Positions 40,745-51,494 of a stretch of DNA of 64,000 nucleotides are shown here, one piece after another. Below the pieces are notes generated by a model. That model saw only the letters and a program-made list of their open reading frames with translations, had not been told where the DNA came from and did no database searches. Within the stretch, counting starts at the first letter, position 1, and the number at the start of each line of letters is the position of its first letter. Source of the stretch: Mycolicibacterium chubuense NBB4 (GTDB taxonomy: Bacteria > Actinomycetota > Actinomycetes > Mycobacteriales > Mycobacteriaceae); the NCBI RefSeq assembly GCF_000266905.1, contig NC_018027.1, positions 682,001 to 746,000 on the forward strand, given 5' to 3'. The position numbers and the translations under genes are program-made.

Positions 40745-40980
40745 CACGTGTTCCTTCGAGCCGATGTCGCGTTCGCTGTCGCCACGATATGTCGTTCCGA
40801 TCCCGATGCACAGGGAAACTGCGGCGTCACGCATTCTTTCGTCGCATGCAATAACTATCCGGAAACTATCCGGACTCCCGGTCGCAGGCCCGTCACGAAG
40901 TCACAACAATGTCGAGTTCTTTACCGACAGAGTCTCGCGGCGCCATTCCGCTGACGCTTACGGTAGCCGCCGTGACACCG

Positions 40981-41667
40981 ATGACCGAGGTCTTGCGGCG
41001 CGCGGAGGTTCTGGCCGCCTGCCTGCTGATCCCGGTCTCGCTCGCCTCCCCGGCGGGTGCCCAACCCGGCGCCGCTCCCGGGGTGGCGACGGTGGCCGAT
41101 ACGCAGGTTCCCGCCGGGGCCACGCAGACCGTCACCACACCCGACGGGTGGACGCTGACGCTCGGGGGCACGAACGAGTCCCAGGTTCCGGTGGCGCCGT
41201 TGACGACCGCCGTCTCGTCGCGCGAGTACCTGGCCAGCGGAACATTCATGGGCTCACTGGTCGGGCCCGGGGAACCGCGAGGAATCCTGGAAGTCGGCTA
41301 CGAGATCGGCTGCGGGATCGACATGAGCACCTCGAACGGCGTGACAATGGCGGGCAGCTCGGGTGTCACACCGTCGCTGGGGGTGTCGGGACCGCTGGGC
41401 GCACTGCCCACGGCCGTTCTTCCGGTCGTCTCGACGCCGGTCAACGGGGTGCTCACGGTCGGTCTGAAGCCGGGCGTCATCATCGTGGTGCCGGTGGACA
41501 AGAAGGACTTCAAGAGCCCCAACCCGTGGATCATGATCAGCAACTTCCACGTCAAGATCGACGGCTGTGTGGGCCAGTCGTTCATCCGCTCGTACGCGAC
41601 GTTGACGCGGCAGACGGATCAGTCCGACGTGGTGCTCTCCTATGTCGGCGTCACCAAGGTCGTCTGA
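40981..41667 (+). CDS. MspA-family porin
   Basis: A 228-residue secreted protein with signal peptide ending near residue 27 (SLASPAGAQ). The mature chain carries the MspA-family strands TPDGWTLTL, SREYLASGTF and RGILEVGYEIGC, the last matching MspA's GTLELGYQIG. The C-terminal strands FIRSYATLTR and VVLSYVGVTKVV follow. MspA porins form octameric channels in the mycobacterial outer membrane. This one is somewhat longer than MspA and has two cysteines, GCGI (about 120) and DGC (about 200), so it is a divergent member. ATG at 40981. It converges on gvpK. Confidence 0.85.
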   Translation: MTEVLRRAEVLAACLLIPVSLASPAGAQPGAAPGVATVADTQVPAGATQTVTTPDGWTLTLGGTNESQVPVAPLTTAVSSREYLASGTFMGSLVGPGEPRGILEVGYEIGCGIDMSTSNGVTMAGSSGVTPSLGVSGPLGALPTAVLPVVSTPVNGVLTVGLKPGVIIVVPVDKKDFKSPNPWIMISNFHVKIDGCVGQSFIRSYATLTRQTDQSDVVLSYVGVTKVV

Positions 41668-41690
41668 GCGAAGCGCTCGACCGCCGACGC

Positions 41691-42005
41691 TCATCCCTCG
41701 CTCGACAGCAGAGGACCGAGCGGCCCGAGATCGATGTTGAGGTCCTCGGGCTCGAGGCCGAAATGCTCGCGCAGCTCCGTCATCTTCTCTTCCAGGAGCA
41801 TCAGGGTGGTCCCGATCCGCTCGATCTGTTCGTCGGTCAGGTCACCGCGGTCGACGCGTCGAATGGCCTGCCGCTCCATGAGCTGACGCAACAGTTCCAC
41901 CAGAGTCAGCACCAGGCTCACCAGACCCCGTTCGACGCTTTCCGGGTCGGCGTCGACGCGGTGCCTCCGCGCGGGGACGGCGTCGTCGTCGGGACGTCCG
42001 GTCAC
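41691..42005 (-). CDS. gvpK: Gas vesicle protein GvpK
   Basis: A 104-residue GvpK homologue. After a short charged start come ESVERGLVSLVLTLVELLRQLMERQAIRRVD and a Leu/Glu-rich helix ending FGLEPEDLNIDLGPLG, which is the core of the family. The GTG at 42005 overlaps the stop of the upstream gvpS-type gene (GTGA). It is the last gene of the gas-vesicle operon. GvpK is required for vesicle assembly or growth in other bacteria. Confidence 0.92.
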   Translation of the reverse strand: MTGRPDDDAVPARRHRVDADPESVERGLVSLVLTLVELLRQLMERQAIRRVDRGDLTDEQIERIGTTLMLLEEKMTELREHFGLEPEDLNIDLGPLGPLLSSEG

Positions 42006-42205
42006 CGTCGGCCGTCCGCCGTGACGTCCGGTAACAGTGGTCCGACCGACGAGATCAACGTGCGCAACGAGATCACGACGAGGTCGACGTCGGCGATGGA
42101 CAACGTGATGTCGCCGGTGATCACGACACCACCGGCGAGTACGCGGTCGAGGAGATCGACCAGAGCGACATTCCGGTTGTTGTCGGCCGGCAGCATCTCG
42201 GCCAT
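42002..42205 (-). CDS. gvpS: Gas vesicle GvpA/J-family protein (GvpS-type)
   Basis: A 67-residue short GvpA-fold protein. LVDLLDRVLAGGVVITGDITLSIADVDLVVISLRTLISSV aligns with the GvpA core, but it lacks the hydrophobic signature of the main shell protein. In actinobacterial clusters the second small GvpA-like gene before gvpK is called gvpS, hence the symbol. The ATG overlaps the gvpL stop (TGATG), and its stop overlaps the gvpK start. Confidence 0.85.
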   Translation of the reverse strand: MAEMLPADNNRNVALVDLLDRVLAGGVVITGDITLSIADVDLVVISLRTLISSVGPLLPDVTADGRR

Positions 42206-42981
42206 CACGCCACCACGTCTCCGGCGAACGAATAGGGCGGCCAGGGGCCGGTGGTCTCCAGTTCGATCCCCGGCGTGTCTGCGCCGACGGCGGCCACGGT
42301 GGCGGTGAACTGGTCGATCGTCGTGGTGTCCACCAGGTAGGTGCCGTTGAGCACCGTCCAGTCCTTCCGGCCCGACAGCCGCTGATCGCCGGCCGGCTTC
42401 CGTTTCCCGTCGACGGCGTGCTGCAGCAGGAGTGCGTGGATACGGTCGGCGTGGCCGGCCGCGAGGCGGAACGCGTCGTCATCGTCGGCCAGGGCCCGCC
42501 GCCTGCGCATGAGATACGCGGTGCCGGACATCTTCTCGCCCGCCGCGACGTCAGCGTTCTGCTGACCTTTCAGGCCTCGTGGGTCCGCATATGCTTTGAC
42601 GCCCATCTCCACGCGCCCTGTCACCCGTTCGAGTGCGGCGCGGAAATCAGCTCGGCGCGCTGCGAGGAGTTGGCGCACCCGTTCGTCGTCGAGGTACACC
42701 GTCGCCATCCGCATGGGCACGACCGGCCCCGACCGCGCGAGAGCCGAGATCACGGCGTCGTGAGCTCGCGCCGTCGCCGCCAACCAGTCGAGGTTCTCGA
42801 GGTTGCGACGCAAGCCTTCCTCGCCGAACTCGTCGAGCCCCACGGTTCCGACCACGGCGGTGAGCCCGGCATTCGCGACCGTTCGGACGGGTTCACCGGA
42901 CACTCCATGCAGGCCGGCGAGATCGGGCTCGGCCGCGTCGCCCGCGACCACCGCGTACGTCCACACTCCGTCAGTCGGCAT
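42205..42981 (-). CDS. gvpL: Gas vesicle protein GvpL/GvpF family (GvpL)
   Basis: A 258-residue GvpL/F protein. It has the N-terminal WTYAVVAGD domain, then LRRNLENLDWLAATARAHDAVISAL, GPVVPMRMATVYLDDERV (about residues 86-103) and VEMGVKAYADP (about 123). The C-terminal ETTGPWPPYSFAG motif is typical of the family. It overlaps the upstream gvpJ gene by 11 bases. GvpF/L proteins take part in the assembly and nucleation of the vesicle. It is one of two such genes in this operon. Confidence 0.92.
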   Translation of the reverse strand: MPTDGVWTYAVVAGDAAEPDLAGLHGVSGEPVRTVANAGLTAVVGTVGLDEFGEEGLRRNLENLDWLAATARAHDAVISALARSGPVVPMRMATVYLDDERVRQLLAARRADFRAALERVTGRVEMGVKAYADPRGLKGQQNADVAAGEKMSGTAYLMRRRRALADDDDAFRLAAGHADRIHALLLQHAVDGKRKPAGDQRLSGRKDWTVLNGTYLVDTTTIDQFTATVAAVGADTPGIELETTGPWPPYSFAGDVVA

Positions 42982-43351
42982 CCTCGTGCTCCACGGCTCG
43001 GTCGGTCACCACCTGTCGCTGCCCGTTCCGCGACTCGAGCTCGTGGACCCGATGGCGCAACTGCTCGTTCTCGAGCTGGAGCTTGGCGCTGTCACCCGAG
43101 AGCCATGGATCGCTCTCCCACCAGTTGATTCCGGCTTCCTTGGCCGTCTCCAGAGAGGCGATCACCAGTCGCAGTTTGATGGTCAGCAGTTCGATGTCGA
43201 GAAGATTGACGCGGATGTCGCCGGCGATGACGATTCCGGTGTCGAGCACCCGCTCGAGGATGTCCGCGAGATTCGTCGACCCACCGCCGGACACCGCCGA
43301 GCCGCCGACTCGCTGCACGGCGGAGAAGTCGTCGTTCGGGGTGATCGTCAC
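42971..43351 (-). CDS. gvpJ: Gas vesicle GvpA-family protein with coiled-coil tail (GvpJ)
   Basis: A 126-residue protein. The GvpA-like core LADILERVLDTGIVIAGDIRVNLLDIELLTIKLRLVIAS spans about residues 28-66. Then comes WWESDPWLSG and a C-terminal coiled coil LQLENEQLRHRVHELES, as in GvpJ proteins. GTG start at 43351 overlaps the gvpO stop (GTGA). GvpJ is a minor structural protein of vesicle tips in studied systems. Confidence 0.88.
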   Translation of the reverse strand: MTITPNDDFSAVQRVGGSAVSGGGSTNLADILERVLDTGIVIAGDIRVNLLDIELLTIKLRLVIASLETAKEAGINWWESDPWLSGDSAKLQLENEQLRHRVHELESRNGQRQVVTDRAVEHEDAD

Positions 43352-43680
43352 AGTGCGCTGCTCCCGTCGCTGGTCTGGCCGCGCATGAAGCGGCGGGTCC
43401 GCCTGTAGGACAGGAGTTCTCCGCTGAAGTCGATCTCCACTTCGTACAGCGCCAGAATGTCGGCCAACGAAGGTATGCGCCGGTCCTCCACCATCTCGAC
43501 CTCGATGATCCAGCCGCCGTCGTCGGTCGGTGTCGCCGACGTCATCCGCACCGGTTCACTGCCGGCCATCTCGGTGGCGTACTCGCGGACCAGCGCGACG
43601 GCCTCGCGTGCCGTCAACGGCTCTCCGGGCTCCGGGTCGGGCGCCGACCTCGGGCGGGTGCGCTGGGCCATCGTCCTCAC
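43348..43680 (-). CDS. gvpO: Gas vesicle protein GvpO
   Basis: A 110-residue GvpO homologue. LTAREAVALVREYATEMAG forms the N-terminal helix. The beta domain GGWIIEVEMVEDRRIPSLADILALYEVEIDFSGELLSYRR (about residues 55-95) is the family's signature. The GTG at 43680 overlaps the gvpG stop; an ATG 9 bases further in (43671) is a possible alternative start. GvpO is needed for vesicle formation in haloarchaea and is common in actinobacterial clusters. Confidence 0.9.
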   Translation of the reverse strand: MRTMAQRTRPRSAPDPEPGEPLTAREAVALVREYATEMAGSEPVRMTSATPTDDGGWIIEVEMVEDRRIPSLADILALYEVEIDFSGELLSYRRTRRFMRGQTSDGSSAL

Positions 43681-43934
43681 CCCGTTTCAGGTGGCGACTG
43701 CGCCGGCGCCGCGGGAGTCACCCTCGCCTGGAGGATCTGCTGCTGAGCCTCGTGTTCATCTTCGGGCGTGATCTCGCCGCGCTCGCGTGCTTCCTCGAGC
43801 GCTTCGAGTTGCCGCCGTGTGTTGGCGGGGTTGTTCATTTCCTGTTCGACCTGCCGCTGGATGACTTCGGCCAGAGCGACCACACCGCGCACGGGGGCCA
43901 GTGGCAGCATCGCTATGCCGGAGAGCAGACCCAT
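43677..43934 (-). CDS. gvpG: Gas vesicle protein GvpG
   Basis: An 85-residue GvpG protein. The hydrophobic start GLLSGIAMLPLAPVRGVVALAEVIQ is followed by the helical RRQLEALEEARERGEITPEDEHEAQQQIL segment (about residues 40-68) and a Pro/Ala-rich end. It begins 1 base after the gvpF stop. Accessory assembly protein in known gas-vesicle systems. Confidence 0.9.
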   Translation of the reverse strand: MGLLSGIAMLPLAPVRGVVALAEVIQRQVEQEMNNPANTRRQLEALEEARERGEITPEDEHEAQQQILQARVTPAAPAQSPPETG

Positions 43935-43935
43935 G

Positions 43936-44733
43936 TCATCCCGCCGGATTCGTGGTGACGACGAAATCGTACGGCGCCAGAGGACCGAGCAACCGCCATT
44001 CGATCAGGTCACCCCAGTCCGACCGCAACCGGTCCAGGACCTTCTTGATCTCTTCCTGGCGGGCGACTTCGGTCAGCAGCGCGAGCGCTACCGCGTCCCA
44101 TTCGTGCGTGGGTTCCCGAGGATTCACATGCTCGGCCAGATCGCCGAGTTCCTCGACCACTGTCTGGGTGTGGGCCTGGCGCTGCTGCTCGACGGCGTTC
44201 GCGATGAGCTCACCGAGAGCGATCTGTGAATTGCGCGACGCGTCCTCGGGCAAGTTGTGGATGTCGTCTCGGAGCGCAGCCGCCTGGGCGTTCTCCGAGA
44301 GCAGACGGGAGAGGAACGCTTGCTCGTCGTACCGGCCTTTGATGATGAATTCGGCACAGCCTTCGAGGGTTTCGAGCGCCTGTGCGAATTCGTCGTGATG
44401 GCCGCGGAGCAGCTCCTCTGCCACCGAGTCGATATCCGTCATCACCGCACCGAACCGCAACGGCAGGACGGGCGCCACTTTGGCCGTACCGTCGAGGAGT
44501 TGCGCATGAGCCTGCAGGTCCTGCGGCCTGCCCAACGCCTGGTCCAGCGACACAGTGCTCACCAAAGCCGCGATGTCGCCCTCACGAACGACGTCGACCT
44601 CCGCCGGCGGCTCGCCGACGCCCTTCGCGTGCTCCTGGACCTCCACGTCTCCCGGAACGACGCCGTAGACGTAGACCCCCGTGCCGGCCTTCGTGTCGTC
44701 GGGACGGACGTCCGTCCCCGCTGACGAGCTCAT
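43936..44733 (-). CDS. gvpF: Gas vesicle protein GvpF
   Basis: A 265-residue GvpL/F-family protein. The start [15 protein letters not shown] is followed by [43 protein letters not shown] (about residues 85-99) and [14 protein letters not shown] (about 127). The C-terminus is [13 protein letters not shown], close to the GPWPPYSF ending of GvpL. Its ATG overlaps the gvpA stop (ATGA). GvpF interacts with GvpA during nucleation in studied systems. Confidence 0.92.
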
Positions 44734-45134
44734 CGGTCCTCCCGTTGGCTGCGAACCTTCTTGCGTTGCGGCTGTTGCTGATTGAGCATGTCGCCGAGCT
44801 TCTCACCGGCAGCGTCGAGTACGCCCTGCGTCTTGCTCTTGGCGGCACCGGACGTGACCTCGTTGACCAGTTCCGGCAGCCCGGCTTTGGGATCTTCCTC
44901 CGCGATATTGAGGCGGTTGACCGCCTGAGCGAACCGTAGATAGGTGTCGACGCTCGCCACCACGACCCGCGCGTCGATCGATATCAGCTCGATGCCGACG
45001 AGCGAGAGCCGGACGTAGGCGTCGATGACCAAGCCCTTGTCCAGGATCGTGTCGATCACATCGGCCAGACTGCTCGAACTCGGCCCTGCCGCAGGGTTGC
45101 TCGCCCCGCCCGACGGTTGGATGGCGGTCGTCAT
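44730..45134 (-). CDS. gvpA: Gas vesicle structural protein GvpA
   Basis: A 134-residue protein containing the canonical shell-protein core [19 protein letters not shown], then [20 protein letters not shown] and [14 protein letters not shown] (about residues 23-75). This is the best GvpA match in the window. Unlike the compact 70-residue GvpA of cyanobacteria it has a 55-residue basic C-terminal extension ([13 protein letters not shown]). Translationally coupled to both neighbours. With only one true GvpA gene, this would form the vesicle wall. Confidence 0.92.
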
Positions 45135-46210
45135 GCTTGGCTCCTTGACTTCGTGGCGGTCCGACGGCGGCCGGACCCTTCGGTGGTGGATGCTGTTCTC
45201 CGGGAACCGGCTCGGCCCACCCTCCGGCGGGCGCCCGTGCGCCGTTGGCCTGTGGCGCGCTCCGGCTCGTCGTCGTCGTCATCTGCTGCAGATACATCGG
45301 ACCCGTCGTCCTCGTCATCCGGTGTTGACGCATCGGTCTCGTCATCTGTGCCGGACTCCGGCTCGGTCACCTCGCCGTCATGGATTTCGCCGAGCCATCC
45401 CTCCACGTCGTCGGGGTGAAGAAGGGTCTGCGTCATCAGATTGCGTTGGAAGTGTTTGAGCTCCAGTCGAACTCGACGGCCTTGCGCTCGCCAGAGGTTT
45501 CCGGTGCGCTCGAAGAGACCCTGCGGGTGGTATTCGAGCACCACCACGACGCGCGTCAGGTTCGGTGCCAGCTCGTGGAACGTGATGGCTCCGTCGACGT
45601 AACCCTTGTCGCCCTTGGAGCGCCACACGATCCGGTCATTGGGGACCTGCTCGACGATGGTCGATTCCCAGCTGCGGTGTGACCAGAAGACCTGCGCCTT
45701 CCAGCGCAGCTTCTCCTCGGAGACCTGTTCGACCTGTTCCAGCTTCTTCATGAACTTCGGCCACTCGGAGAACTCCGTCCACTGGCGGTACACCAGGTCC
45801 ACGGGGGCACCGACGTCGATGTGTTCGACGATGTTGGTGACCTTGAGCTTCTTGCCGCCACCGCCCTTGCCCTTGCCGCCGAACAGCGCCCCGGCGGCGT
45901 TGCTCACCGTGTCCTTGACCTTGTCACCGGCAGTCGACAGGCCCTTTTTCGCGATCGACTTGACCGGCGATGTGACGTCATCCAATCCCGTGACCGCGGA
46001 CAGCAGTCCCTTGCCGCCGCCGTTCGCGGCGTAGTCGGTCAGCCTCTCGGTGGTACCGCCCAGACGATCCGACAGCGACGACACCGCGCGGTTGGTCACC
46101 GTGCCGGCCAGTTGCTGCAGGGATGACTGCAGCGGTCCTGACGGTGTTGCTTCGCGGGCACCGCCGGCGTCTTTGGGTGCTCCCTTGACTGTCTGCGTCA
46201 TCGTTCTCAC
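45131..46210 (-). CDS. SRPBCC (polyketide cyclase/START-like) protein of the gas-vesicle operon
   Basis: A 359-residue protein in three parts. A helical Gly/Thr-rich N-terminus (about residues 1-115) includes [19 protein letters not shown]. The SRPBCC cyclase/dehydrase domain (about 118-260) has [29 protein letters not shown]. The tail (about 275-359) goes from acidic to strongly basic. Such SRPBCC genes recur in actinobacterial gvp operons. The hydrophobic-pocket fold suggests a lipid-like ligand, but the role is unknown. Start GTG 46210 overlaps the upstream stop; an ATG at 46201 is possible. Its stop overlaps gvpA. Confidence 0.87.
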
Positions 46211-46965
46211 CGTCCTTGCCGGGTAGTGGACCGTGTTGCTGTCCTTCGCGGCGTTCGCGCTGCTGCCTTCTGTGGTGCACCTGACCGGCGGGCTGGGCGG
46301 CGACGCCGTGTCACGGGCGGTTCGGGCTCTTCCTCCGGCTCGTTGTCGAGTTCCTCGTCGAAATCCTCGCCATCGTCGACGTCGTCATCGAAGTCGTCGT
46401 CAACGTCATCGGCACCTTGGCCCTCCGAGTCGACGTCGAGCGGCTCCTCCTCGTCATCGGCCTCTGGTTCCATACCGACGTCCTCGTCGTAGTCATCGGC
46501 CGCTCTACCGCGTCTTCTCGACCGGCGACCGCGTCCGGTCGCTGCACCCCCGATGTCGCCCACGGCACCGCCGATGTCGCCGACCGCGCCGCCGATGTCG
46601 CCGACCGCGCCGCCGACGTCGCCGACCGCACCGCCGACGTCGCCGAGCGTCTCGTCGACGCCGACGGCGGAGGTGACGCCTTGCAGCCGGTTGTTGAGGG
46701 CGTCCACCTGGCTGACGGCGGCCGAGATCGCGGCGGCTTTACCTGCGGTGAGCAACTCGCCACGCAGCTGCTCGGTCAGCTGGCTGAGATCGGTTGAGGC
46801 GCTGAGTGATTTGACTCCGTATGCGACAAGATCGCTCGGGTGGGTCGGGAACTTCCCGGTGATGCCGGCGCCCGCCAGCATGAGCGCCCACCGCATCTTG
46901 CGGGTGCGGCCCAGTAAGTACCCCGTTCCTACGCCTGCTGCCAATGCGACTTTTCCAGTTGACAT
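46207..46965 (-). CDS. Gas-vesicle operon leader protein with GDxGGAV repeats and acidic tail
   Basis: A 252-residue protein and the first gene of the operon. The N-terminus STGKVALAAGVGTGYLLGR and RWALMLAGAGITGKF are hydrophobic. A helical region (about residues 50-105) is followed by five tandem 7-residue repeats of the form GD(V/I)GGAV. A basic patch (RGRRSRRRGR), a long Asp/Glu-rich stretch and a basic Arg/Thr/Ala tail follow. The ATG at 46965 follows AAGGAGATCGCGAC. No named family recognised. Placement and charge pattern match the SRPBCC partner, suggesting that they act together on vesicles or on the membrane. Confidence 0.8.
   Translation of the reverse strand: MSTGKVALAAGVGTGYLLGRTRKMRWALMLAGAGITGKFPTHPSDLVAYGVKSLSASTDLSQLTEQLRGELLTAGKAAAISAAVSQVDALNNRLQGVTSAVGVDETLGDVGGAVGDVGGAVGDIGGAVGDIGGAVGDIGGAATGRGRRSRRRGRAADDYDEDVGMEPEADDEEEPLDVDSEGQGADDVDDDFDDDVDDGEDFDEELDNEPEEEPEPPVTRRRRPARRSGAPQKAAARTPRRTATRSTTRQGR
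46550..46645. repeat. In-frame 21-bp tandem repeat inside the operon leader gene
   Basis: About 4.5 copies of a 21-base unit (CGATGTCGCCGACCGCGCCG plus C) encode the GD(V/I)GGAV heptads on the minus strand. Copies differ mainly at third codon positions and at V/I, so repeat number is under coding constraint. Confidence 0.9.
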
Positions 46966-47063
46966 GTCGCGATCTCCTTCGTCTCTGCGCACGTCGCTTC
47001 CACTGGGCGACGCTGAGGAAATAGGTTCGATGGATTTCCGATGTCGCCCGTGCTGACGGCGGA

Positions 47064-47090
47064 TTACCCCTTGTGTTGAGGGGCGAATCG
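47064..47090 (-). promoter_or_regulatory. Possible SigF-type promoter of the gas-vesicle operon
   Basis: On the minus strand CGATT (47090-47086), 16 bases and GGGTAA (47069-47064) resemble the mycobacterial SigF promoter GGWWT-N16/17-GGGTA. It lies about 100 bp upstream of the first gvp-operon ATG at 46965. It is a single-promoter pattern match without experimental support. Confidence 0.4.
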
Positions 47091-48066
47091 GAAACGCCAG
47101 AAAATTTGACGCGATATTTCCAGCGACTGTAGAACGATGTGACGGGACGTCAGAGAAAAGATTGCTGTAGACAGCATCAGCGCATTTCAGAGGTATGAAG
47201 TAGATCGCTAGAGGAAAGTTTGGAGCGTTTCATCAGTAATTTTCCCCACGTGAGCTAACCCCAAGCAGAAATTGTCGGAAAATAATTAGCGCAGCGAATA
47301 CTTGCGCCTATCACAATCGTCGAAATAAGCTGTGGTTGCGTCGTATTGCTCACGTCATAAAGTGAGGAATTTCCGAGGTTCCGTTATTCGAGGGAATGTC
47401 ACCCGTCTGGCACCCTGTGTTGCCGCGTCGACTCGCGTGCGATCCAGAGTCGGCGCGGGGCCGTCAGAACACCTGCTCGGGTGGAAATGCGACGGAAGCG
47501 CAGCCGCACTGCAACGGCGATCTTTGCTCATATTCGTCTGCGGCTCGAGCCCTCAGGACTCTCCAACGGTCGAGGACCCGCTGATCACGTTGTCCGGCTG
47601 CAGGTTCCATCGCACAGAGGACGCCGCCGGTCTCGGTGGTGAGCGCGATGAGCATTTCGCTCAGGGGGATAACCACGGACGACGATCTCGACATGGTGAC
47701 ACCACGGGTCCGCCGGAATGCCGTCGGTGCGGCGCCCGCCTGAGGGGATCCCAGTCGTTTTGCCCAGCACCGAAAGTGCAAACAGTCGGCGGATTCGCCC
47801 GCCGCAGGCGTCGCGGACCAGCAGCGATCGGGATCGGTCAGAAGGCGTCCACCCGAAAGAACCAGCGCACGCGTAAATGTCCAGCGTGGGGGCGATGCGG
47901 GGAACATGTTCTAGCCGGCAAACACACGCGTCGCGGCCTCCGCCGAGCGGCAGAGCGGTGAAACCCACCGCGACAGCACATTTCGCTTTGAACGGACCCG
48001 AAACGGGGAACTCCTGCGTCCTGAGAGCCGACCCGGGTGGGTCGCACGAAGAGAGGTCGTGACGCG
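47091..48066. other. Long intergenic region, A+T-rich on its left side
   Basis: Nearly 1 kb with no convincing gene. Positions 47091-47400 are clearly richer in A+T than the rest of the window (runs such as AAAATTTGACGCGATATTT and AATTTTCC). This suits a control region bound by Lsr2- or EspR-type nucleoid proteins. From 47400 the composition returns to normal, but reading frames on both strands overlap with mixed codon use. It may hold a decayed gene. Confidence 0.6.
47464..47694 (-). CDS. Possible small ORF, unsupported family
   Basis: A 76-codon frame from an ATG at 47694. Its first part has neighbour-like codon use (IPLSEMLIALTTETGGVLCAME) and it then becomes less coding-like. There is no good ribosome site and no recognised family. 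It may be the remnant of a longer gene, and could equally be chance. Confidence 0.25.
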   Translation of the reverse strand: MSRSSSVVIPLSEMLIALTTETGGVLCAMEPAAGQRDQRVLDRWRVLRARAADEYEQRSPLQCGCASVAFPPEQVF

Positions 48067-48243
48067 ATGAGCAATGCCGACAAGATCAGAAACGCGGTGC
48101 AGAGTCTGTCGGGTAGAGCGAAGAGGATCACCGGGCGTGCCACCGGCGATCAACGTCTGGAGGACCAAGGCTGGGCCGACCAGACGAAGGCCGACTTCAA
48201 GCAGCGGGCAGAGAAGCTCAAGGACGCCTTCCGCCGCCGGTGA
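48067..48243 (+). CDS. CsbD-family stress protein
   Basis: A 58-residue CsbD-like protein. SLSGRAKRITGRATGDQRLEDQGWADQTKADFKQ is the family core (about residues 13-46), highly charged and helical. ATG at 48067 with GAAGAGAGG about 12 bases upstream. CsbD is a general-stress protein of unknown mechanism in Bacillus (SigB regulon). Its presence next to the gas-vesicle operon and a small membrane protein suggests a stress-response neighbourhood. Confidence 0.85.
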   Translation: MSNADKIRNAVQSLSGRAKRITGRATGDQRLEDQGWADQTKADFKQRAEKLKDAFRRR

Positions 48244-48319
48244 CAGGGTCGGCCACCGGACGTGCCGAGCCGTCGCGCCGCGGGCTCGAACCTGCGGCGC
48301 GCGCCGGTGCCACCTCCGT

Positions 48320-48526
48320 CTAAGAGATGTGCATCAGGTCGCCGGACAGAGTGAGCAGGCGCCGTCCCAGCTTCATCACGGGTATCCCGAGCGGAAGCAG
48401 GAGTACGGTCACGCACAGCACCAATCCGAGGAGCCAGATCACCGCGGCGAGAATCCCCAGAACCACGCCGAGTACGGCTCCGAGGATTCCGAGCACCACA
48501 CCGAGTAGGCCATTCAACGCCTTCAT
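48320..48526 (-). CDS. Small membrane protein
   Basis: A 68-residue, strongly hydrophobic protein. Residues about 5-52 form two Gly/Leu/Val-rich helices (LLGVVLGILGAVLGVVLGI and VIWLLGLVLCVTVLLLPLGI). A basic turn VMKLGRRLL and an amphipathic end follow. ATG at 48526 with AAGGAGG upstream. Known in actinobacteria as a small hypothetical membrane protein; function unknown. Confidence 0.75.
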   Translation of the reverse strand: MKALNGLLGVVLGILGAVLGVVLGILAAVIWLLGLVLCVTVLLLPLGIPVMKLGRRLLTLSGDLMHIS

Positions 48527-48729
48527 GATGACCTCCTTGTCTCTTCGGGTACCCGTGCCCGCCGGGTTGATTCACCCTTCGGGATCGCGAATCCCAAGGC
48601 ACGCAGCACAGTGACACGCCGCCGGGCAACACGACGGCGACACAGATTGCTGTCGAGGCCCGCCAGCAACCTTCACGATGTACTGTTTGTCCTCCTGTTG
48701 GCTCCGTCCCTAGCGAGGCAGCGTTCACC

Positions 48730-50505
48730 GTGAGACTGATCCTTGAATTGCTCCGTCCGTATCGGTGGCTGGTGGCGGGCATCTTCGCCGTCCTGCTCGT
48801 CCAGATCGCGATGGGCCTCGCCGCACCGTGGCCGTTGAAGGTCGTTCTGGACAGCGTGGTCGGCGACCACCCGCTGCCGCCGTGGCTGCACGGGCTGCTT
48901 CAGCCGATCCTGGGCGGGGAGAGCCGGATGCACATCGCCGGGCTCGCGGCGATCATGGTCATCGTCATCGCGGTGATCGCCGCCATCGCGACGTATGTGG
49001 CCAACTACCTCACCGAGACGGTCGGGCAGCGCGTCGGCAACGACCTGCGCACCCGCGCCTACCACCACCTGCAGCAACTCTCGCTGAGCTACTTCGACAC
49101 CCACCGCGTTGGGCCCATCCTGTCGACCCTCACCGACGACGTCGACACCATCCAGGACTTCGCGTCCGCGTCGACGCTGGGCATCGCGACCGATCTGCTG
49201 ACGATCCTCGGCATGCTCGGTCTGATGCTGTGGCTGCAGTGGGATTTCACGCTGGTCGCGCTTGCGGTCGCGCCGCTGCTGCTGCTGTTCGTCTCCCGCA
49301 TCCGCAAGGCGGTCAAGGCGGCGACGCACGAAGTGCGCCAACGCGAATCGGACATCGTCGCGGTCGCAGAGGAGGGTCTGCAGTCCATCCGCGTGGTCAA
49401 AGCGTTCGACCGCGAGGATCACCAGGAACGGCAGCTGGCGCTCGTCGGCCAGCAGGCCGTCGACGCGGCGCTCAACGCGCGGCGGGTGAAGTCGGTGGTG
49501 TCGCCGATCGTCGCCGTGGTCGTCGCGGCCTGCACCGCCCTGGTGCTGTGGCGCGGCTCGGCCCTCATCCTCGCCGGCGCGATGACCGCGGGCACGCTGA
49601 CGGTGTTCATCAGCTACCTGGCGTCGTTCTTCAAGCCCGTGCAGGACCTGGCGAAGCTGACCAACACGATCGCGATGGCCGCCGTCGGGGTGGACCGCGT
49701 CGCCGCGCTGCTGGATGCGGAGACCGGCATCGAAGAGAAGGCCGACGCCGTCGACGCCCAACGCATCAGGGGCGCACTGAAATTCGAGAAGGTGGCGTTC
49801 AGCTACGACGGCGCCAAGCCGGTGCTGCGCGACGTCACCTTCGACGTCGAGCCGGGCCAGCTCGTCGGCATCGTCGGGCACACCGGCAGCGGCAAGTCCA
49901 GTCTGGTCAGCCTGATCCCGCGGTTCTACGACCCGAGCGTGGGCGCGGTGCGGATCGACGGCGTCGACCTGCGCGACTACAAGCTGCACGAACTGCGGCA
50001 GCAGATCGGCTACGTGCTTCAGGACACGGTGCTGTTCCGCGGGACCGTGCGCGACAACATCGCCTTCGGCCGGCCCGACGCCAGCCACGACGAGATCGTC
50101 GACGCGGCGAAACTCGCCAACGCCCACGAGTTCATCTCGGACATGCCGCAGGGCTACGACAGCGCCGTGGGTGAGCGGGGCATGACGCTGTCGGGCGGAC
50201 AGCGGCAGCGCATCGGCATCGCCCGCGCGCTGATCCGTGACAGCCCGATCCTCATCCTCGACGAGCCGACGGCCGCGCTCGACGCGCAATCCGAACATCT
50301 GGTGATGTCGGCGCTGCAGCGGCTGATGGCCGACCGCACCGTGATCACGATCGCGCACAGGCTCAGCACCATTCGCGACGCGGACAAGATCGTGGTGCTC
50401 GAGGAGGGACGCGTAGTCGAGCAGGGCACGCACCAGGAGCTGCTGACCTTCGGTGGCACGTACGCTGACCTGCACCGCATCCAGTACGAGAACGAGGCGC
50501 CGTGA
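48730..50505 (+). CDS. ABC exporter, fused permease and ATPase
   Basis: A 591-residue half-transporter of the MsbA/multidrug type. The N-terminal six-helix domain (about residues 1-320) contains the QRVGNDLRTRAYHHLQQL coupling region. In the ATPase domain Walker A GHTGSGKSS is near 382, the Q-loop near 424 and signature LSGGQRQR near 486. Walker B ILILDEPTAALD is near 505 and H-loop IAHRLST near 540. It would act as a homodimer, exporting a lipid or hydrophobic compound. GTG start at 48730. Its stop overlaps the start of the phospholipase D-like gene (GTGA). Confidence 0.92.
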   Translation: MRLILELLRPYRWLVAGIFAVLLVQIAMGLAAPWPLKVVLDSVVGDHPLPPWLHGLLQPILGGESRMHIAGLAAIMVIVIAVIAAIATYVANYLTETVGQRVGNDLRTRAYHHLQQLSLSYFDTHRVGPILSTLTDDVDTIQDFASASTLGIATDLLTILGMLGLMLWLQWDFTLVALAVAPLLLLFVSRIRKAVKAATHEVRQRESDIVAVAEEGLQSIRVVKAFDREDHQERQLALVGQQAVDAALNARRVKSVVSPIVAVVVAACTALVLWRGSALILAGAMTAGTLTVFISYLASFFKPVQDLAKLTNTIAMAAVGVDRVAALLDAETGIEEKADAVDAQRIRGALKFEKVAFSYDGAKPVLRDVTFDVEPGQLVGIVGHTGSGKSSLVSLIPRFYDPSVGAVRIDGVDLRDYKLHELRQQIGYVLQDTVLFRGTVRDNIAFGRPDASHDEIVDAAKLANAHEFISDMPQGYDSAVGERGMTLSGGQRQRIGIARALIRDSPILILDEPTAALDAQSEHLVMSALQRLMADRTVITIAHRLSTIRDADKIVVLEEGRVVEQGTHQELLTFGGTYADLHRIQYENEAP

Positions 50506-51494
50506 CGCGATCACTGATCATCCTGCCCGATGATTCGGCGCAGCCCGTTCTCGATGCGATCCACGGGGCGACGCGGTCGATCCGGATCAAGATGTTCGCA
50601 TTCAGCCATCGCCCGCTTCTGGATGCGGTCGTCGGCGCGCACCACCGCGGCGTCACGGTGAAGGTCATGCTGAACCCGGTGCGGCGCGACGGTGAGACCG
50701 ACAACGACGGCGCACGGGACCTGTTGGCGCAGTTCGGCATCGAGGTCACCGAGAGCAGCCCCGCGTTCGGCCTGACGCACGAGAAGTCGATGGTGGTCGA
50801 CGACGAGTACGCGTTCGTGGAATCACTCAACTGGACCGTCGAGAACTTCACCGAGACACGCGATTACGCGGTCGTGACGCCGAGCGCCCGCGAGGTCGAA
50901 GAGATCACCGAGTGCTTCGAAGCGGACTGGGCCCGAGAGGCATTCCAACCCGGAGGAGGCGCCTCACTGATCTGGTGTCCGACGAACGGCCGCACGCGCA
51001 TCGCGGAGTTCATCGATCGTGCCGAGAAGTCCCTGTTCGTGCAGAACGAGCGCTACCAGGATCCGGTGATCATCGAGCGATTGGTCCGCGCGGCCCGGCG
51101 TGGCGTGAAGGTCCACGTGATGGCGCGCGCACCGCATCACCTCAAGGCCGACAAGCTGTTGGAAGGCGTCAGCGGGCTGCGCATCCTCGACGACGTCGGC
51201 ATCAAGATCCACCGGCTCAAGCACCTGAAACTGCACGCCAAAATGATCCTGGCCGACCACGAGCGGGCCATCGTCGGCTCGATCAACCTGTCGCCGGGCA
51301 GCTTCGACCACCGCCGCGAACTCGCCATCGAGGTCGACGACCGCCACATCATGAAGCGCCTCACCGAGGTCGCCCATCACGACTGGAAGCATTCGGCGCC
51401 CATGGATCTCAGCGATGCGGCGCTGCTGGCGGATCTGGCCGGCCGGGACCGGCGCGAGGTGGATCAGCTCGCGTTGCACGACCCCGACGAGTGA
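50502..51494 (+). CDS. Phospholipase D-like protein (two HKD motifs)
   Basis: A 330-residue protein with two PLD catalytic motifs. The first is HEKSMVVDDEYAFVESLNW (about residues 93-111), the second HAKMILADHERAIVGSINL (about 244-262). Both have His and Lys; the usual Asp is shifted as in some bacterial PLD/cardiolipin-synthase-like proteins. There is no signal peptide or membrane helix. It is translationally coupled to the ABC exporter, so a lipid-transfer or lipid-modification role with it is plausible. Substrate unknown. Confidence 0.88.
   Translation: MTRSLIILPDDSAQPVLDAIHGATRSIRIKMFAFSHRPLLDAVVGAHHRGVTVKVMLNPVRRDGETDNDGARDLLAQFGIEVTESSPAFGLTHEKSMVVDDEYAFVESLNWTVENFTETRDYAVVTPSAREVEEITECFEADWAREAFQPGGGASLIWCPTNGRTRIAEFIDRAEKSLFVQNERYQDPVIIERLVRAARRGVKVHVMARAPHHLKADKLLEGVSGLRILDDVGIKIHRLKHLKLHAKMILADHERAIVGSINLSPGSFDHRRELAIEVDDRHIMKRLTEVAHHDWKHSAPMDLSDAALLADLAGRDRREVDQLALHDPDE

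Follow-up and report, generated by a model that had tools for sequence, protein, structure and literature searches.

Gas-vesicle gene (gvp) clusters of Streptomyces, Frankia, Rhodococcus and Nocardia have already been published (PMC7600791; this and all other papers cited by PMC number are represented here by excerpts). Why soil actinobacteria keep such genes has been a question since the Streptomyces clusters were described. In Streptomyces coelicolor, for which the gene order is given as gvpOAFGYZJLSK, gvp disruption left buoyancy unchanged, the genes rise with salt, and protection from hyperosmotic stress was proposed as their role (PMC5839063); the promoter of the operon is reported to be SigB-regulated (PMC5733086), and 11 of 16 gvp genes went up after acid shock (PMC2631018). 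The essential set in haloarchaea comprises A, F, G, J, K, L, M and O, and haloarchaea without GvpN form tiny vesicles only (PMC9501494). Our literature searches on mycobacteria and gas vesicles returned no paper whose title dealt with gas vesicles of mycobacteria; they left subscription papers mostly uncovered, and we claim no absence. Here we describe a complete ten-gene gvp operon in Mycolicibacterium chubuense NBB4, at 46965-41691 on the minus strand of a 64,000-nucleotide stretch of contig NC_018027.1 (positions 682,001 to 746,000, hereafter the window). The cluster is of a known kind, and its regulatory and partner context, a SigF-type promoter box and a small hydrophobic protein that we call hyd, is newly added. 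We consider it slightly more probable than its opposite (about 0.55) that this is an intact, selected, GvpN-less operon making small stress-induced shells for turgor or stress management and not for floating.

The identity and intactness of the operon are firm. Read from 46965 to 41691, the genes run gvpY, gvpZ, gvpA, F, G, O, J, L, S, K, and all ten open reading frames are intact (Table 1). A preliminary description of the window, made from the sequence alone, had listed ten tightly packed genes with these identities and this order, joined mostly by 4-base junctions, and had reported no GvpN; all of this holds. It had called the first two genes a leader and an SRPBCC gene. Both are present, and they are better named gvpY and gvpZ because their homologues occupy those positions in Streptomyces loci ordered O-A-F-G-Y-Z-J-L-S-K, which makes the operon gvpYZAFGOJLSK. 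The 4-base stop/start overlap is certain at five of the nine junctions (Z/A, A/F, O/J, L/S and S/K). At Y/Z and G/O it occurs with upstream GTG starts and becomes a 5-base gap with ATG starts, while F and G are separated by 1 base and J and L overlap by 11 bases. The gvpY start, ATG at 46965, is preceded by AAGGAG. Pfam gathering cut-offs are met by nine genes: gvpA, the assembly factors F, G, J, K, L and O, the M/S protein, and the SRPBCC protein GvpZ. GvpA also lies above two curated NCBIfam cut-offs (NF006872, 159.3 versus 151 bits; NF006874, 102.6 versus 100 bits), and J and S are distinguished only through their best curated models, both under cut-off.

GvpN was sought across the whole genome with TIGR02640, which gave nine matches, none above cut-off (best 63.2 versus 266.8 bits). 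The same model detects a true GvpN (344.5 bits; L059:9344-10429) in the different cluster type of another genome of the genus, G355, where CDC48-like ATPase and GvpH matches lie nearby. GvpC, too, had been reported as lacking in the preliminary description; a search for it (PF01304) found no match in this genome and none in the control genomes either, and hence does not show absence.

The operon carries a signature of maintenance. Across five mycobacterial pairs, dN/dS ranges from 0 to 0.32 for all ten genes, which indicates purifying selection; in the window's own pair it is 0.10 for gvpA and 0.12 for gvpK. The wall segment of GvpA matches the solved Anabaena and Bacillus megaterium shells (8gbs, 7r1c) and is followed by a C-terminal extension. 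Identity to the Anabaena wall segment is highest in GvpA (Table 1), with 25/45 in J and 17/52 in S. Shell formation is likely but unproven.

We further surveyed 396 genomes of the genus, as the preliminary description had proposed, and found a GvpA-family gene in 26. With other actinobacterial clusters also in print, to call such an operon unexpected in a mycobacterium would be too strong. Among the 25 other positive genomes (handles G and a number; L for loci), 20 carry Y-Z-A-F-G-O-J-L-S-K on one contig, a conservation of order far beyond chance. The remaining five are two clusters split over contigs, one fragment (G365) and two clusters of another type (G210 and G355), in which no Y or Z was seen and whose GvpA share 50 and 49 of 56 residues with Anabaena (L049 and L059). 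On one small contig (L067, G269:C186), F and A run one way and Y-Z-A the opposite way, which may reflect a partial second copy or a misassembly. A microarray table from a spray-drying study (PMC5445863) annotates M. smegmatis MSMEG_5745 as a 'gas vesicle synthesis protein', so that an orphan gvp-like gene may exist apart from complete clusters. Across 298 genomes of the order, GvpK occurs in 48, spread over 22 of 76 genera. We also collected named loci, the best 80 of at least 560 confirmed relatives; they come, among others, from M. colombiense E1334, M. elephantis DSM 44368 and several Mycobacterium sp. strains, followed after the mycobacteria by Prescottella, Rhodococcus, Nocardia, Gordonia and Amycolatopsis. 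A tree built from six concatenated proteins has 51 rows (the window, 38 of the 80 named loci and 12 other loci). Its mycobacterial clusters fall into a single clade (support 1.000) apart from those of G077 and G344, whose place is with Pseudonocardia dioxanivorans (support 1.000). We take the distribution to reflect mostly vertical inheritance with frequent loss, and in addition a single separate origin.

A conserved promoter box precedes the operon. The pattern GNNT-N14-17-GGGTA is found in 22/22 mycobacterial upstreams, starting about 106-133 bases before gvpY, whose starts were estimated from tblastn for this measure. Besides the window's own upstream, the set draws on 20 stretches from other sampled genomes and on one named metagenome genome (L073). 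Not included are G372 and G269, where tblastn did not place the gvpY start, and G365, G210 and G355, where no gvpY was seen. The species are related, and the box counts are thus not independent. GGGTA is invariant (22/22), the first half has G in 20/22 and its last T in 21/22, and no spacer column exceeds 13/22. The strict form G[AG]TT is present in 17 of the 22 upstreams against 22 of 1028 controls, and the loose box (N15-17) in 44 of 1028; many of these controls are non-genes and the gvp genes are among them, which leaves the rates rough and, if anything, too high. Published consensus sequences are GTTT-N14-19-GGGTA for SigF of M. smegmatis (PMC4694148) and GGWWT-N16-17-GGGTAY for mycobacterial SigF (PMC7693655). 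The window's own box fits the loose GNNT and not the exact GTTT form; the separate-origin clusters of G077 and G344 carry the published form, GTTT-N16-GGGTAT. A sigma-70 promoter scan of 41300-48800 returned no site. A terminator scan of the same interval returned two terminator-like sites against 3.6 expected, so we claim no terminator.

The genome encodes SigF (NF005514, 494 bits versus a cut-off of 372). Genome-wide, the strict box has 28 matches in its GGGTAG form (reversed control 11) and 18 in its GGGTAA form (control 6). The surroundings of two of these 46 were inspected: one GGGTAA-form match is the gvp box itself, and one GGGTAG-form match ends 28 bases before an RsbW-like gene (a weak match of 25 bits, under its cut-off), which is followed by sigF. 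Altogether, these upstreams give good support to control of the operon by a stress-type promoter, and the factor in question may be SigF. Stress-sigma control would then be a theme shared with Streptomyces, since the box here is of SigF class, the S. coelicolor promoter is reported as SigB-regulated and most gvp genes there rise on acid shock.

The first two genes extend well beyond the genus. By tblastn against the 80 named loci, Y is found in 60 and Z in 62, including Streptomyces, Nocardia, Rhodococcus and other genera, and the loci lacking them are cut contigs or, mostly, Streptomyces clusters. Both proteins end in an acidic-then-basic tail, with 35 of 59 residues acidic and then 13 of 36 basic in GvpY, and 19 of 39 acidic and then 13 of 38 basic in GvpZ. 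The SRPBCC core is the only well-modelled part of GvpZ; it has a START/SRPBCC fold in the structure model, nearest to DR_A0006 (3ggn) and also close to M. smegmatis MSMEG_0129 (5z8o). For GvpY, confidence in the model is low (mean pLDDT 57). Two GvpY relatives (P0131 and P0167) bear the public label 'DNA primase'; the window protein matches no Pfam family. The names GvpY and GvpZ are also in use for Serratia proteins (PMC4982088). A reading of GvpY, GvpZ and hyd as anti-phage defence was dropped, as none of the three has a PADLOC match.

Judged from its distribution in the genus, the undescribed protein hyd is inherited together with the gvp cluster. It is strongly hydrophobic, its mean column identity is 84 percent (20 sequences), and it occurs in 25 of the 396 genomes: all 23 with a strong GvpY match, plus G359, where hyd is a partial match in a genome 80 percent complete, and G258, where it is weak (21.8 bits). 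A 24th GvpY match, in G262, is weak at 22 bits. In 17 of 22 other genomes hyd shares the fetched stretch with cluster genes; it lies elsewhere in G095, G153, G245 and G254, and in G269 on a small contig next to a gvpF match. The Pseudonocardia-like clusters of G077 and G344 have hyd as well, although it was not seen beside the P. dioxanivorans cluster itself. Where the two are linked, joint loss of hyd and gvp could be simple deletion of neighbours. Evidence beyond this comes only from the four genomes in which hyd is unlinked, which probably reflect one event, and from the separate-origin clusters of G077 and G344. Against a core role of hyd stands the order sample, in which it is found in only 3 of the 48 GvpK-positive genomes, all three in the window's own family; among the best 80 relatives, the only non-mycobacterial locus with hyd is that of Rhodococcus sp. 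JCM 9791 (L101). A box of similar class, for which the pattern was relaxed slightly, stands in 12 of 20 hyd upstreams (8 lack it) against 71 of 1039 controls, and a second related hydrophobic protein adjoins hyd in many relatives.

Several other genes recur around these clusters. A gene for a CsbD-like stress protein, here pointing away from the operon, lies near the cluster in six other loci, and a GlsB-like protein (Pfam match under cut-off) lies near gvpK in 12 fetched stretches. Patatin and acyltransferase genes adjoin the cluster or hyd in 10 of the 25 other genomes; in L041 (12362-14172), L045 and L057 a patatin-like phospholipase gene and an acyltransferase gene come immediately after gvpK in the same orientation, so that in some species the operon may be longer. 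Only CsbD and hyd, among these recurrent neighbours, were found beside the window's cluster. Elsewhere in the window's genome (L172:418-720, minus strand), a protein that is CsbD-like by eye is divergent from the rsbW-sigF pair. On the far side of hyd, 48730-51491 (plus strand) holds an ABC exporter gene, with a 93 percent identical counterpart near the L041 cluster, and then a phospholipase-D-like gene. At the other end, an MspA-family porin gene (40909-41667, plus strand) converges on gvpK, with about 23 bases between both stops.

Table 1. Coordinates and assignments of the gvp operon and associated features in the window
Feature	Position	Strand	Assignment and remarks
gvpY	46207..46965	-	No Pfam family; conserved N-terminal domain of ~100 residues, acidic stretch, basic C-terminal tail
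gvpZ	45131..46201	-	PF03364; START/SRPBCC domain, helical N-terminal region, acidic-then-basic tail; alternative GTG start 46210
gvpA, shell protein	44730..45134	-	PF00741; 40/54 residues identical to Anabaena GvpA
gvpF	43936..44733	-	PF06386, 196 bits; solved relatives 4qsg, 6l5d
gvpG	43677..43934	-	PF05120, 65.7 bits
gvpO	43348..43671	-	PF05800, 77.8 bits; alternative GTG start 43680
gvpJ	42971..43351	-	PF00741, 58.6 bits; best curated model GvpJ, under cut-off
gvpL	42205..42981	-	PF06386, 187.9 bits
gvpS (GvpM-like)	42002..42208	-	PF00741, 52.1 bits; best curated model GvpM, under cut-off
gvpK	41691..42005	-	PF05121, 131.6 bits; GTG start overlaps gvpS stop
SigF-type box	47064..47089	-	GATT-N16-GGGTAA; starts 124 bases before gvpY ATG
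hyd	48320..48526	-	68-residue hydrophobic protein; no Pfam family; co-occurs with gvp in the genus
Similar-class box	48549..48573	-	GAAT-N15-GGGTAC; before hyd
CsbD-like stress protein gene	48067..48243	+	PF05532, 51.3 bits (cut-off 40); divergent from operon

Because a complete, maintained gene set stands behind a promoter of general-stress type, the operon probably serves stress survival rather than floating. In the mechanism that we propose, SigF or a close SigB/F-type sigma factor would switch the operon on under stress or in stationary phase. GvpA with GvpF, G, J, K, L, O and S corresponds to the shell-essential set of haloarchaea; GvpY and GvpZ are actinobacterial additions that would act in nucleation or on the surface of a membrane or of lipid, and hyd, too, may help to link assembly to such a surface. 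Since GvpN is missing here and its loss in haloarchaea leaves tiny vesicles, the shells would stay small, as small bicones enclosing a pressure-resistant gas space. Small or narrow vesicles resist higher pressure, which would suit a high-turgor cell. The product would accordingly manage turgor or stress and provide no float. A stress role had been put forward in the preliminary description; it has gained support from the conserved SigF-type box and the CsbD-like neighbour. We also hold as a tentative possibility that the operon belongs to a SigF-regulon stress-organelle module, in which GvpY, the START-like GvpZ and hyd, as a dedicated membrane protein, couple the assembly of small GvpN-less shells to the membrane and CsbD, GlsB-like and lipid-remodelling proteins help in part of the species.

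A number of observations weigh against this picture. The commonest box (GATT/GGTT ... GGGTAG/A) differs from the exact published consensus sequences, its strict form is missing in 5 of the 22 upstreams, and outside the genus the loose box was found in only 4 of the 17 upstreams examined. Five SigBFG-type sigma factors score above cut-off in the genome, so the cognate factor is unproven. After acid shock, gvpA and gvpF of one S. coelicolor cluster fell (PMC2631018). The equation of S with the M protein depends on a best match under cut-off, no Z was found in 18 of the 80 named loci (some of them cut contigs), and the roles suggested for Y and Z follow from fold and position only. For S. coelicolor, whose cluster is of similar kind, conditions under which gas vesicles form are not known according to the excerpt of PMC4982088; the excerpt of PMC9501494 states, to the contrary, that Streptomyces forms them.

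The shells could instead act as in aquatic microbes, raising cells or clumps to the air-water surface. A near-canonical GvpA wall protein and the minimal gene set would allow this, but the tiny vesicles of haloarchaea without GvpN, the unchanged buoyancy of the Streptomyces mutant and the general-stress class of the promoter all make ordinary buoyancy unlikely. That the cluster is a decaying or silent horizontal acquisition with no current function is very improbable: it is patchy in the genus, at 26 of 396, and two genomes carry a version that groups with Pseudonocardia, yet every gene stays at or below a dN/dS of 0.32 in all five pairs, the order is intact in 20 of 25 other genomes, the box stands in all 22 upstreams, and the other mycobacterial clusters form a single fully supported clade.

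A further alternative is that the Gvp proteins build something not filled with gas, such as a lipid-droplet coat, a membrane-associated scaffold or a storage protein. GvpY, GvpZ with its START/SRPBCC fold, the strongly hydrophobic hyd and the patatin and acyltransferase neighbours point to lipids, and nitrogen storage has been suggested for the Streptomyces proteins (PMC5839063). Lipid handling, raised in the preliminary description, is only hinted at by that fold and by the lipid genes in 10 of 25 other genomes; none of these genes is beside the window's cluster. The GvpA wall segment is, moreover, conserved as in true gas vesicles, and the gene set and order match those of gas-vesicle assembly factors, which leaves a non-gas assembly doubtful. 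Small stress-induced shells remain our preferred reading. If the stress-organelle module is real, gas vesicles would be a turgor or envelope-stress device in bacteria that do not float. The conserved stress-type promoter, the selection signal and the new co-inherited partner make the question of why soil actinobacteria keep these genes testable in mycobacteria, and, if shells form without GvpN, the operon would offer a compact natural gene set for ultrasound reporters.

Among described systems, the Streptomyces clusters share the ten families, with Y and Z present in part of their loci. For S. coelicolor (SCO6499-6508) the operon promoter is reported to be SigB-regulated, and the list excerpted from PMC9501494 has no N gene, just as the genome here has no GvpN above cut-off. 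The order differs, with O first and Y-Z mid-cluster where the operon here starts with Y-Z, and in O-first loci Y and Z are only 29-43 percent identical, several Streptomyces loci showing neither. Nocardia, Rhodococcus, Gordonia and Amycolatopsis share the window's order, Y-Z-A-F-G-O-J-L-S-K, in nearly all loci (a Nocardia gvpAFGOJLMK cluster is in print; PMC7600791), although Nocardia concava (L138) shows no Y or Z. Differences lie in the scarcity of the SigF-type box outside the genus (the 4 of 17 upstreams above) and in the rarity of hyd in the order (3 of 48). The haloarchaeal p-vac cluster shares the core A, F, G, J, K, L, M(S) and O with the operon here, which has no N above cut-off and adds Y and Z. 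Anabaena and B. megaterium have a matching wall segment, which the GvpA here extends at its C terminus, and their clusters carry GvpN (PMC9501494), which this one does not. On GvpN, then, the window cluster is not of the canonical GvpA-C-N type; with Y and Z homologues inside it and no GvpN above cut-off in the genome, it is an actinobacterial YZ-type gvp cluster.

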